The notes under the pieces were generated by a model. The model saw only the letters and a program-made list of their open reading frames with translations. It was not told the DNA's origin and did not search any database. The translations under genes and the position numbers were made by a program. A stretch of 64,000 nucleotides of DNA, taken from Methylophilales bacterium LSUCC0135. GTDB taxonomy: Bacteria > Pseudomonadota > Gammaproteobacteria > Burkholderiales > Methylophilaceae. The DNA lies in assembly GCA_001704575.1 (NCBI GenBank), contig MCAW01000003.1, positions 1 through 64,000 on the forward strand. Reading direction: 5' to 3'. Of this stretch, positions 52,079-64,000 are shown piece by piece (the stretch's first letter is position 1; each line of letters begins with the position of its first letter).

Positions 52079-53461
52079 TTAATGCCCCCGGTTGCCCCTG
52101 TGTATGGGTTTTGGCGAGAACAGTGCCGCCTGCGGCATGGCCTGATGGCGCGCTGCTTCGGACATGGGCTTGCCGGATTTGCGCGGTGCTTCTGCCGCCG
52201 GTCTGGCTTGCGGCTTCTGCCCGGATTTTTGCCCCTGACGCTGCTGCTGGTTCTGCGGTCTGCGCTGCTGGTTTTGCGGTCTGGGCGGACGTGGCGCTTC
52301 CGCTTCGATTCTGGCGGGTGGTACGAAGCCTTCGACGGCAACGCGCGGAATCTCCCGCTTGATCAAACGTTCGATGCCCTTCAATAACTTGATTTCTTCT
52401 GCATCCACCAGCGAGACAGCGGCACCGCTGCTACCGGCGCGTCCGGTACGTCCGATACGATGCACGTAATCTTCAGGCACATTGGGCAGCTCAAAATTCA
52501 CGACTTGCGGCATTTGATCGATATCAAGGCCGCGGGCGGCGATGTCGGTCGCGACCAGTACGCGCAGACTGCCATCCTTGAATTGCGCCAATGCTTTGGT
52601 GCGGGCGCCCTGACTTTTGTTGCCGTGAATGGCTGCGGCTTCAATGCCGTCTTTCACCAGCTTTTCGGCCAGGCGGTTGGCACCATGTTTGGTGCGGGTG
52701 AAGACCAGCACCTGTTGCCAGCCGTTGGCTTTGATCAAATGGCTCATCATGTCGCGCTTCTGGCTTTGCGGAACGAGGTGTAAAGTTTGTTCGACCAGCT
52801 CGGAAGCAGTATTGCGACGGGCGACCTCGACAAAGCCGGGATTGTTCAAGAGACTGTCGGCCAGTTCCTTGATCTCATCCGAGAAGGTGGCGGAAAACAG
52901 CAGGTTCTGACGCTGTTTCGGCAATAGTGCCAGAATTTTTTTGATGTCGCGGATGAATCCCATGTCCAGCATGCGATCGGCTTCGTCGAGCACAAGAATT
53001 TCAACGGCGGAGAGATCGACGGTTTTCTGGCCGACATGATCGAGCAGACGGCCCGGCGTGGCAACCAGGATATCCAGCGGTTTTTTCAGGCGTGCGATCT
53101 GCGGGTTGATGTTGACGCCGCCGAACATCACCATGGATTTCAGCCGCAGATATTTGCCATAGGTTTTTACCGACTCCTCGACCTGTGCCGCCAGTTCCCG
53201 CGTTGGCGTCAGAATCAGGCAGCGCGGCTGGCCGGCTTTGGCCTGTATGGGTTTTGCCGACAGCAAGTGCAGCAAAGGCAGCGTAAAACCGGCTGTTTTG
53301 CCGGTGCCGGTCTGGGCGCCGGCCAGAAGGTCGCCGCCGCTCAATACTTGCGGGATGGCTTTCAGCTGGATCGGGGTGGGGGTGGTGTAGCCTGCGTCGC
53401 CGATGGCGCGCAGAATGGGTTCTGCCAGATTCAAACTGGCAAAGGTGACTTCAGTGGACAA
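52079..53461 (-). CDS. rhlE: DEAD-box RNA helicase RhlE
   Basis: A 460-residue helicase. All core motifs are present: [13 protein letters not shown] (I), PTRELAAQ (Ia), TPGRLLDH (Ib), [11 protein letters not shown] (II), SATFS (III), [12 protein letters not shown] (V) and [10 protein letters not shown] (VI). The C-terminus is a basic, Arg/Gln/Pro-rich tail (about residues 385-460), typical of RhlE, which acts in ribosome assembly and RNA decay. The start is TTG at 53461, with AGGAG upstream. No ATG is close. A hairpin (TTTTGCC / GGCAAAA, 53482-53500) sits just upstream of the ribosome-binding site and may regulate translation. Confidence 0.94.
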
Positions 53462-53680
53462 TACAGACTCCTGCGACGGCCTTTTGCCATCAGGGCAAAA
53501 CCAATCGGGGCAGACGAATAGGTGATCGGAAAGATCGGGGTAATAAAAAAGACCGCTACGCTGATTGGTTAAGCGCAGGGAAAACGCATTATACGGGGCT
53601 GCCGCAGGAAAGCCAGCTTATTCTGTGTTCATGGGCCATTGCCGGCGAACGGTAACGTTTGCTTACAATTCAGGAGGAGT

Positions 53681-53714
53681 TTGAAATATTTTAATTACAT
53701 CATTAACTTAGAAT
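53681..53714 (+). promoter_or_regulatory. Possible promoter of the candidate small RNA
   Basis: An AT-rich stretch with TTAGAAT (-10-like TAGAAT, 53709-53714) precedes the RNA. A TTGAAA at 53681-53686 lies too far (22 bp) to be an ideal -35, so the promoter is weak or activator-dependent. It is supported mainly by the RNA that follows. Confidence 0.4.
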
Positions 53715-53719
53715 GGCAC

Positions 53720-53807
53720 TCAATTGTTCATCTCCCCTTTGTGACAATTCGGACGCTTGCAAAAGCGAACTTCTCAAACCGCCCGCCAGGGCGGTTTTCT
53801 TTTTTCT
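53720..53807 (+). ncRNA. Candidate three-hairpin small RNA with a CUCCCC loop
   Basis: In a 380-bp gap with no coding gene, three hairpins follow each other. Hairpin 1, 53722-53749, pairs AATTGT-CA with TG-ACAATT and exposes TCTCCCCTTTG, an anti-Shine-Dalgarno loop. Hairpin 2, 53754-53767, is CGCTT-GCAA-AAGCG. Hairpin 3, 53776-53797, is AAACCGCCC / GGGCGGTTT followed by TTTTCTTTTTT, a strong intrinsic terminator. No gene lies upstream on the plus strand to need that terminator: rhlE is divergent and DUF502 convergent. An Hfq-type trans-acting RNA of about 85 bases is inferred. It is not a family I can name, though CUCCCC-loop RNAs are known in other proteobacteria. Confidence 0.6.
53776..53807 (+). 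terminator. Intrinsic terminator of the candidate small RNA
   Basis: AAACCGCCC / GGGCGGTTT stem with GCCA loop, then TTTTCTTTTTT. The strongest single piece of evidence for a plus-strand transcript here. Confidence 0.9.
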
Positions 53808-53841
53808 GCGCAGCACACTTTTTCAGTAATGCACAAACGTC

Positions 53842-54432
53842 TTATTTGTTGTCGTGATTGGCCATCCAGGCGAACAGCGAGGAACGCATCGCTTCTTCTA
53901 CCGACATGTTGAGCGGTTGTAGCCAGTCGCGCGGCACAAATACCGTGTAGCCGCCTATCATGTAGCCCATGGGGAGATAGACGGCGACCCGGTCGCCCGG
54001 CATGAAACCATCTGGCAGGCCATAGAGGCTTTGTCGTGTCACCAGGCCCACCATTTCCAGATCCTGTCCCGGGAATCGCAGCGTCACCACTTGTTGTGCA
54101 GGGCCTTCCTTGTCCGGGGCAAAATATTCGGCAAAATTCTTCAGTGAGGAATAAACGCTTTTGATTACCGGCAGGCTGGTGAAGGGCAGCTCAATCAATG
54201 AAAGCAGCTTCAGCGCACGTTCGTTGGAGATGATGAAGCCGAGCAGAACGATACTACCGATGCCGAACAAAAGCCCCAGGCCTGGAATGTAGAAATCACC
54301 GATGATGGGCCGCACCCACCACATGGCGATGCCTTCGGTCCAGGTCAGGAAAAGATAAAGCAGGTAAATGGTCAGGCTCAACGGCAAGGCCGCGAGCAGG
54401 CCGCGAAAAAAATACTGATATAAATGTTTCAT
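53842..54432 (-). CDS. DUF502 family membrane protein
   Basis: A 196-residue protein with two N-terminal membrane helices (FFRGLLAALPLSLTIYLLYL and a second around GLLFGIGSIVLLGFII) and a soluble C-terminal part with LPVIKSVYSSLKNFAEYF, LRFPGQDLEMVGLVTRQ and PMGYMIGGYTVFVPRDWLQP. This is the DUF502 family, conserved inner-membrane proteins of unknown function. It stands alone, convergent with the candidate RNA. Confidence 0.92.
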   Translation of the reverse strand: MKHLYQYFFRGLLAALPLSLTIYLLYLFLTWTEGIAMWWVRPIIGDFYIPGLGLLFGIGSIVLLGFIISNERALKLLSLIELPFTSLPVIKSVYSSLKNFAEYFAPDKEGPAQQVVTLRFPGQDLEMVGLVTRQSLYGLPDGFMPGDRVAVYLPMGYMIGGYTVFVPRDWLQPLNMSVEEAMRSSLFAWMANHDNK

Positions 54433-63264: not shown

Positions 63265-63305
63265 CTTATCCGGCACAGATAAAATTCCGGAGGAGATGCA
63301 ACAAA

Positions 63306-64000
63306 ATGGAAGCATTGCAATCAGCAGGGGATGTGTTATTCGTATTGCTTGGCGCCATCATGGTGCTGGCGATGCATGCCGGTTTCGCTTTTCTTGAAGT
63401 CGGTACCGTGCGCAAAAAGAACCAGGTCAACGCTCTGGTCAAGATCATGGTGGATTTTTCGATGTCCACCATCGCGTATTTTTTCATCGGCTACAGCATC
63501 GCCTATGGCGTCGGTTTTCTGCAAGGCGCCGAGGCGCTGTCGGCGAAGAACGGTTACGACCTGGTCAAGTTTTTCTTTCTTCTGACCTTTGCTGCAGCGA
63601 TTCCGGCCATCGTTTCCGGCGGTATTGCCGAGCGCGCCAAATTCAATCCGCAGCTGGCGGCTACGTTTGCGCTGGTCGGTTTGGTTTATCCTTTTTTCGA
63701 GGGCATTGTCTGGAACGGCAACTTCGGCGTGCAGTCATGGATTGAAGCCAGCTTCGGCGCACCGTTTCACGATTTTGCCGGTTCTATCGTGGTGCATGCC
63801 ATGGGTGGCTGGATCGCGCTGGCAGCGGTCATGCTGCTGGGCGCGCGCATGGGCCGCTACAGCAAGGATGGAAGATTGCATGCCTTCCCGCCCTCGAACA
63901 TTCCTTTCCTGGCGTTGGGCGCATGGATTCTGACGGTTGGCTGGTTCGGCTTCAATGTGATGTCGGCGCAGGCGATCGAGGGTATCACCGGTCTGGTGGC
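63306..64000 (+). CDS. amt: Ammonium transporter (Amt), 5' part only
   Basis: The first 231 codons of an Amt/Mep/Rh channel. The ATG at 63306 follows GGAGGAG (spacing ten). The N-terminus (EALQSAGDVLFVLLGAIMVL) leads into AMHAGFAFLEVGTVRKKNQV, GGIAERAKFNPQLAA and GSIVVHAMGGWIALAAVMLLG, the latter bearing the first pore histidine (VVHAMGG). About six membrane helices are in the window and the rest of the gene is cut off by its end. It is regulated by sigma-54/NtrC as seen upstream. The usual neighbour glnK does not precede it. Confidence 0.95.
   Translation, partial: MEALQSAGDVLFVLLGAIMVLAMHAGFAFLEVGTVRKKNQVNALVKIMVDFSMSTIAYFFIGYSIAYGVGFLQGAEALSAKNGYDLVKFFFLLTFAAAIPAIVSGGIAERAKFNPQLAATFALVGLVYPFFEGIVWNGNFGVQSWIEASFGAPFHDFAGSIVVHAMGGWIALAAVMLLGARMGRYSKDGRLHAFPPSNIPFLALGAWILTVGWFGFNVMSAQAIEGITGLV

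Follow-up and report, generated by a model that had tools for sequence, protein, structure and literature searches.

MicF is an enterobacterial small RNA (sRNA) that is activated by OmpR. OmrA and OmrB follow the same logic that we predict for the RNA described here, i.e. expression of a short Hfq-type RNA under an OmpR-type regulator, and pairing of this RNA close to the ribosome-binding site (RBS) of its targets (PMC12692685, available portion). In Bordetella pertussis, the accessible sections of PMC11019879 report that ChIP-seq of the regulator RisA retrieved a GTTACA motif in 391 out of 430 peak regions, with binding at risA's own promoter and at putative sRNAs, such as vrgX, rgtA and others, and that RisA autoregulation was not seen despite the site at risA. 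These putative sRNAs belong to different organisms and resemble ours by regulator family and type of motif. OmpR boxes elsewhere have been described as 20-bp sites made of two 10-bp sub-elements in tandem (PMC3050692, partial text), and boxes of similar type are predicted in Acidithiobacillus caldus (PMC9861516, partial text). Besides these regulator-linked RNAs, two further systems can be likened to our RNA by description. NmsRA and NmsRB of Neisseria also fold into three stem-loops with UC-rich unpaired anti-Shine-Dalgarno (anti-SD) regions and repress translation, and they differ in being a sibling pair and in having two anti-SD stretches, of which the first separates stem-loops 1 and 2 and the second occupies loop 2 (PMC5362039, available portion). 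S17 of Bordetella is a betaproteobacterial Hfq-dependent sRNA whose conserved unpaired sites pair at or near the RBS, differing in that RNase E processes S17S from a longer RNA (PMC11722255, available portion).

Here, we analysed a locus within a window, meaning the whole 64,000-nt stretch of DNA, that probably represents an independent gene for an ~85-nt trans-acting regulatory RNA with an OmpR/RisA-controlled promoter and anti-SD repression of mRNAs as its mode of action. Compared with the systems above, it would most likely define a novel sRNA family with a known type of function, working like OmrA/OmrB and unrelated to them in sequence, the probable OmpR/RisA promoter being the new and testable point. 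Unlike OmrA/OmrB, the window RNA has no Rfam match and its proposed seed is a hairpin loop. The first-pass annotation of this DNA had been unable to assign the RNA to a named family and the Rfam searches agree with it; no family reached threshold in the window, the best sub-threshold match within 53,650-53,830 scoring 21.1 bits versus a cut-off of 50, and OmrA/OmrB and MicF, without any window match at the Rfam threshold, were also absent from the permissive list for 53,650-53,830. Neither the RF02278 (Betaproteobacteria toxic sRNA) nor the RF02837 (anti-hemB) covariance model matched the window RNA. The best RF02278 match of the same genome lies elsewhere, at locus L050 on contig C4 (28.8 bits versus a cut-off of 50, in a search whose controls also match in 13 out of 14 unrelated genomes), and its interpretation as an S17-like RNA was rejected because the locus matches anti-hemB. 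This anti-hemB sRNA (C4:142,087-142,173, minus strand; RF02837, 66 bits), which begins with UCUCCC, is likewise a C-rich sRNA of the window's genome and differs in being a separate gene, on another contig and with a different sequence. Among papers mentioning both small RNAs and Methylophilaceae, none dealt with sRNAs as judged from titles and abstract openings, and no listed paper was recognised as describing the window RNA.

A conserved three-hairpin RNA with an exposed loop

The terminated RNA gene consists of three consecutive hairpins, the last being the terminator itself (Table 1), with the sequence and positions that had been claimed for them in the first-pass annotation. Hairpin 1 contains UCUCCCCUUUG at 53,731-53,741 and the terminator stem (53,776-53,797) is followed by UCUUUUUU. 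All genes around the sRNA, encoding the DUF188 (YaiI), RhlE and DUF502 proteins, lie on the minus strand, which agrees with the earlier remark that no upstream gene could use this terminator. By its sequence, the gene displays features of the sRNA class, i.e. a promoter region of its own, a U-tailed intrinsic terminator and no coding capacity.

Table 1. Coordinates of the sRNA, its promoter and the neighbouring genes in the window
Feature	Position	Strand	Remarks
OmpR/RisA-box-like tandem element, GTAACGTTTGCTTACA ... GAAATATTTTAATTACA, four half-sites	53652..53699	+	Conserved at 7/7 sRNA loci
Probable -10 hexamer, TAGAAT	53709..53714	+	From alignments; TAAAAT in G001, TATACT in G017
Small RNA gene	53722..53806	+	Start deduced from the -10 and end set by the U tract; without ATG
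Hairpin 1, stem AAUUGU(U)/(G)ACAAUU	53722..53749	+	Alignment, pair and unpaired-probability analysis
Anti-Shine-Dalgarno loop, UCUCCCCUU	53731..53739	+	Invariant in 7/7
Hairpin 2, CGCUU-GCAA-AAGCG	53754..53767	+	Outermost pair varies among relatives (C-G, U-A or A-U)
Intrinsic terminator, 9-bp stem	53776..53806	+	U tract on the plus strand only
DEAD-box RNA helicase, divergent neighbour	52079..53461	-	Best NCBIfam match RhlE, below the cut-off of that model
DUF502 protein, convergent neighbour	53842..54432	-	Separated by ~35 nt (stop codon to sRNA end), not overlapping

Other roles for the locus were considered and discarded. A length difference of one base next to the loop, together with the absent ATG, speaks against a peptide gene. 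An antisense RNA to DUF502 was dismissed on the lack of overlap between the RNA and that gene, a leader of a downstream gene on the lack of a plus-strand gene directly after the RNA, and a terminator serving DUF502 on the lack of a T run on the minus strand.

The RNA occurs in all six genomes of the window's genus (Methylophilaceae) and in one out of 181 other genomes of the family, G017. These seven carriers (the window's genome, five congeners and G017) came from a first DNA search over 61 genomes, and a covariance model built from their sRNA sequences (R1) and run over 187 family genomes scored them at 72.6-110.2 bits, with no strong match in the remaining 180. Fourteen of these other family genomes match R1 at E <= 0.1 with 25-32 bits, none of the matches having the UCUCCCC that hairpin 1 exposes in the window RNA. 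An order-wide search (399 genomes, E <= 0.02) retrieved three genomes, namely the window's own with a strong match and two with weak ones (31.8 and 29.7 bits). Scanning a collection of 84,980 genomes for the exact hairpin-1 motif identified seven contigs, six of which are those of the non-window carriers, labelled as Methylotenera (one), Methylophilaceae (three) or only Betaproteobacteria (two); the seventh, an Omnitrophota-labelled contig, has its match within a long ORF, and we regard it as fortuitous. A phage or plasmid origin was discarded after searching the corresponding collections, which yielded no sRNA match and from which near records of the window's genome are possibly absent.

The sRNA of the window is placed between DUF502 and the start of rhlE, divergently from the latter, and four congeners share this arrangement; in the fifth, G004, the contig starts too close to the sRNA to include rhlE. 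The G017 copy is found between a blc-like gene (241.6 bits, under the model cut-off of 267) and the 3' end of rhlE, i.e. not upstream of rhlE, and keeps its own promoter. Indeed, the 70 bp upstream of the sRNA are conserved at the seven loci, G017 included, and their maintenance at a different side of rhlE indicates that promoter and RNA therefore travel together. The claim of a conserved independent RNA gene is supported across the six genomes of the genus and G017.

Each of the seven sequences forms the full set of 20 base pairs that make up the three stems, in an alignment fitted to that structure. Compensatory changes in relatives, for which the first-pass annotation had proposed a search, are found at a single pair, the outermost of hairpin 2; one-sided variation affects three further pairs, of which two belong to hairpin 1 and one to the terminator, and the other sixteen never vary. 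The covariation score was matched by 7 out of 500 shuffles and the count of double-change pairs by 132 out of 500. Covariation lends modest support to the predicted structure, given the small number and close relationship of the sequences. The UCCCC core of the hairpin-1 loop is predicted to be unpaired with a probability of at least 0.97 in the seven sequences, so that the exposure of an anti-SD sequence by this hairpin, as originally proposed, is supported for an invariant loop. The U and C preceding the core are less consistently free, with unpaired probabilities of 0.49-0.99 overall and, for three sequences, of just 0.49-0.69. In three out of seven predictions the final U of UCUCCCCUU is paired. 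The GCAA tetraloop noted earlier on hairpin 2 does exist in the window's genome and only there, the other carriers having CUCC, GAUUC, AUCAA or AUCUC at this position; it is incidental. The terminator loop also varies among carriers.

Folding of the 85-nt stretch 53,721-53,805 yields -26.3 kcal/mol versus a mean of -16.4 for dinucleotide shuffles (z -3.27; 2 out of 200 as good), and a pattern scan of 53,400-54,000 detected two terminator-like sites where 0.6 are expected, the sRNA's own and a weaker one at 53,639-53,655. A wider segment of 131 nt folds less strikingly, just mildly above shuffles (z -1.81; 11 out of 200 as good), as it could be expected if the locus were not an RNA gene and merely combined a chance terminator with conserved DNA upstream of rhlE. 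Such an interpretation is hardly tenable in view of the conservation of loop, stems and terminator in seven genomes with one covarying pair, the placement of the G017 copy away from the rhlE start and the presence of the U tract on a single strand.

The promoter element and its counterpart at ompR

The promoter, on which the first-pass annotation was silent, is the most informative part of this RNA gene. A pattern scan of 53,400-54,000 found no consensus sigma-70 promoter, and the -35 region is poor, which fits an activator-dependent promoter without proving activation. A candidate sigma-54 promoter (TGGCAC-N4-TTGTT) overlapping the sRNA start in the window was rejected, the GG of its -24 box not being kept in all relatives. 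The sRNA promoter contains a ~50-bp element of the form GTWAC-N6-TTACA-N15-GAAAyAT-N5-TTACA, which recurs with identical spacing and similar letters upstream of ompR in the same genome and is present at ompR in a large part of the family. Among the genomes inspected, the element also precedes ompR in G001, G002, G003, G005 and G009; it is absent from the ompR locus of G091, and ompR itself was not found in G004 and G017 at the threshold used, both genomes being less than 77% complete.

Allowing up to 3 mismatches, the element pattern matches exactly twice in the 2.1-Mb genome of the window, at the sRNA and at ompR, and its reversed control not at all; over the 187 family genomes it matches in 129, and the reversed control gives 20 matches in all. 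The zero-mismatch matches at the sRNA and ompR arise by construction because the pattern was written after seeing both sets of promoters. Two other approaches are less circular. A covariance model of the seven sRNA loci with 71 upstream columns (R2), run over the same 187 genomes, recovered the seven true loci and, beyond them, 25 weak matches of 22-40 bits; of these, 23 were examined as loci (L098-L120), and 16 of the 23 adjoin an ORF with OmpR-type motifs, as called by motif search, the L101 and L123 proteins being those also given a family search. A matrix derived from 25 ompR-locus elements of other genera, themselves picked with the element pattern, scored the sRNA promoter at 22.6, the next-best of 527,262 positions on contig C3 (264 kb) reaching -2.6, i.e. 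the sRNA promoter is the only strong match on this contig. Conversely, a matrix from the seven sRNA promoters gave 12.7 to the ompR site of the same genome, versus 9.2 for the best other C3 position, the sRNA excepted.

The regulator encoded at the ompR locus of the window's genome (L123) passes the NCBIfam OmpR equivalog model with 400.8 bits, and the L101 protein with 380.7, the cut-off being 331. The adjoining kinase resembles EnvZ below the cut-off of the model (334.6 bits versus 415) and carries a RisS periplasmic domain (120.6 bits); therefore, the pair corresponds to the betaproteobacterial RisA/RisS. The DNA-binding domain of the regulator aligns with that of E. coli OmpR (1odd) over 116 residues (E 8.6e-45), and 31 of the last 38 aligned residues, which presumably include the DNA-recognition helix, are identical.

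It can be argued that a real anti-SD sRNA is here preceded by an element bound by some other regulator, or by a generic activator site, unrelated to OmpR/RisA. Binding of OmpR/RisA at the sRNA promoter is indeed a prediction, the half-sites of the window are imperfect versions of GTTACA (CTTACA and ATTACA agree at 5/6 positions and GTAACG at 4/6, none being exact), and the element at the ompR locus is oriented toward a divergent secreted-protein gene, not toward ompR. We nonetheless regard this alternative as unlikely, for three reasons. An OmpR-type gene is found at 36 out of 50 examined element loci (30 from the search and 20 hand-chosen, with preference for second sites), many genera being represented; the motif measured for the orthologue RisA is GTTACA (PMC11019879); and the DNA-binding end of the regulator is conserved. 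As for the ompR locus, the orientation of the element would make the divergent gene a more likely target than ompR. This secreted-protein gene lies downstream of the element on contig C8 (L123, ~523-1,197), and its counterpart in L101 has an EF-hand match.

Predicted mode of action and candidate targets

With OmpR/RisA as the favoured regulator of the sRNA, the following sequence of events can be proposed. The active OmpR-type response regulator would bind the four half-sites, arrayed in tandem immediately before the -10, and activate transcription of an RNA ending at the intrinsic terminator, whose U tail would serve as a normal Hfq-binding end. The 5' hairpin would then present UCUCCCCUU for pairing with purine-rich ribosome-binding sites of the GGGGAGA type, and this pairing would repress translation of a set of mRNAs, the OmpR/RisA regulon gaining a post-transcriptional repressing arm, as with OmrA/OmrB in enterobacteria. 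Of this scheme, the sequence itself shows the conserved RNA, its invariant exposed loop and the element in common with ompR, while transcription, OmpR/RisA binding, activation rather than repression of the promoter, Hfq binding and target repression are inferred. The combination of a promoter site of ompR's kind and a loop that could block the RBS suggests that this envelope-stress regulator may switch genes off as well as on. The predicted architecture of an Hfq-type trans-acting sRNA, put forward in the first-pass annotation, is supported together with the conserved anti-SD loop, and hfq is present in all seven sRNA-carrying genomes.

No exact AAGGGGAGATG target exists in the window's genome. 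The background for the target screen was provided by 221 genes of a single contig, 264 kb out of the 2.1-Mb genome, delimited with a simple ORF caller. The mean loop pairing energy was -8.1 kcal/mol at the 221 C3 start regions, -7.4 inside genes and -8.9 at start regions with shuffled loops, the small advantage of starts over gene interiors being slightly exceeded by the shuffles. Searching for AAGGGGAG with an ATG within 12 bases returned 33 matches in six genomes, three of them without a locus, and 28 loci were examined. Plausible target starts are those of mraY in G000 and G003 (MraY by Pfam), of a gene resembling lemA on inspection in G002, G004 and G005, of one more gene in G002 and G004, and of single genes in G001 and G003, the other matches lying inside genes. 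The mraY start, preselected for its match, forms the best loop duplex when compared with the 221 background starts (-19.1) and ranks 8 with the whole 5' hairpin.

The major porin gene ranked 27 by its start region and 15 by its 5' UTR against the same 221 genes by loop energy. Its presumed 5' UTR has AAGGGGAG in G000, G001, G004 and G005 and lacks it in G003; the porin start of G002 is off its contig, and the second porin copies of G000 and G003 are without such a leader. At the porin loci L183, L180, L181 and L179 (the last three from G001, G004 and G005, respectively) the 5' UTR begins with the conserved AAGGGGAG, which runs into a hairpin, GAGUUCGCGAACUC. Within the window itself, the RBS of an ammonium transporter gene (63,292-63,308; gene start at 63,306) shows complementarity, interrupted by a 1-nt bulge, to UUGUUCAUCUCC in the sRNA. 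This amtB pairing extends over 12 bp in G000 and G001, with the bulge measuring 1 nt, and over 11 bp in G002, with a bulge of 2 nt, and the pattern had no match in G003, G004 and G005 (4 out of 34 pattern matches were without a locus). The possible targets mraY, amtB and porin are weak leads. OmrA/OmrB repress ompR-envZ (PMC12692685, available portion), whereas the window RNA is predicted to pair poorly with the ompR start region, which ranks 191 against the 221 background genes by loop energy.

The target screens, in which no convincing conserved mRNA target was found, would also suit a transcribed RNA without any role in RBS pairing, e.g. a sponge for a protein or for another RNA, and the similar start of the anti-hemB RNA of the same genome indicates that the C-rich motif is not unique. 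We consider this very improbable, given that the loop core is invariant and unpaired while the hairpin-2 and terminator loops vary; anti-SD pairing thus remains the role that we favour.

Other RNAs behind the element and wider meaning

With intrinsic terminators defined by a simple criterion, 5 of the 14 element loci that are not at ompR have one within 260 nt, and none of the 36 that are. The five are the G017 sRNA, L130 (G091), L131 and L161 (both G010) and L163 (G013). L131 carries AAUCUCCUCCCUC ahead of its terminator and L130 carries UAUCUCCUACUCCCUAC. Scored with the ompR matrix, the elements rank L130 (40.0), L131 (27.9), L161 (25.3) and L163 (15.5); L131 reaches just 1.2 with the sRNA-promoter matrix, and the L161 and L163 elements have 3 mismatches to the pattern. 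A further element, at L106, lies below the pattern threshold and scores 6.9 with the ompR matrix. L163 and L106 are upstream of MlaC-type genes (L106 by Pfam, L163 by resemblance only) and, because of this position, their RNAs could be leaders. The RNAs behind the elements at L130, L131, L161, L163 and L106 had no Rfam match. In two genomes of genus g19 (L016 and L019, ~1,501-1,581) a C/U-rich terminated RNA, AACUUCUCCUCCCUCAAG, that resembles its counterpart in the other genome is located downstream of a glycogen synthase-like gene, identified by eye, and is a possible 3'-UTR sRNA.

It is tempting to speculate, though we hold this as tentative and rather doubtful, that the Methylophilaceae keep an OmpR/RisA-driven 'sRNA slot' in which the promoter is conserved and the RNA body turns over, different genera placing different short terminated C/U-rich RNAs behind a similar element (more weakly so at L161). 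If this were true, the wiring from regulator to sRNA would be older than any one RNA sequence. More directly, the window RNA is an sRNA tied by sequence alone to a named two-component regulator, so that the condition of its induction can be tested immediately, and it would point to a separate acquisition of sRNA arms by the OmpR-type regulators of beta- and gammaproteobacteria.
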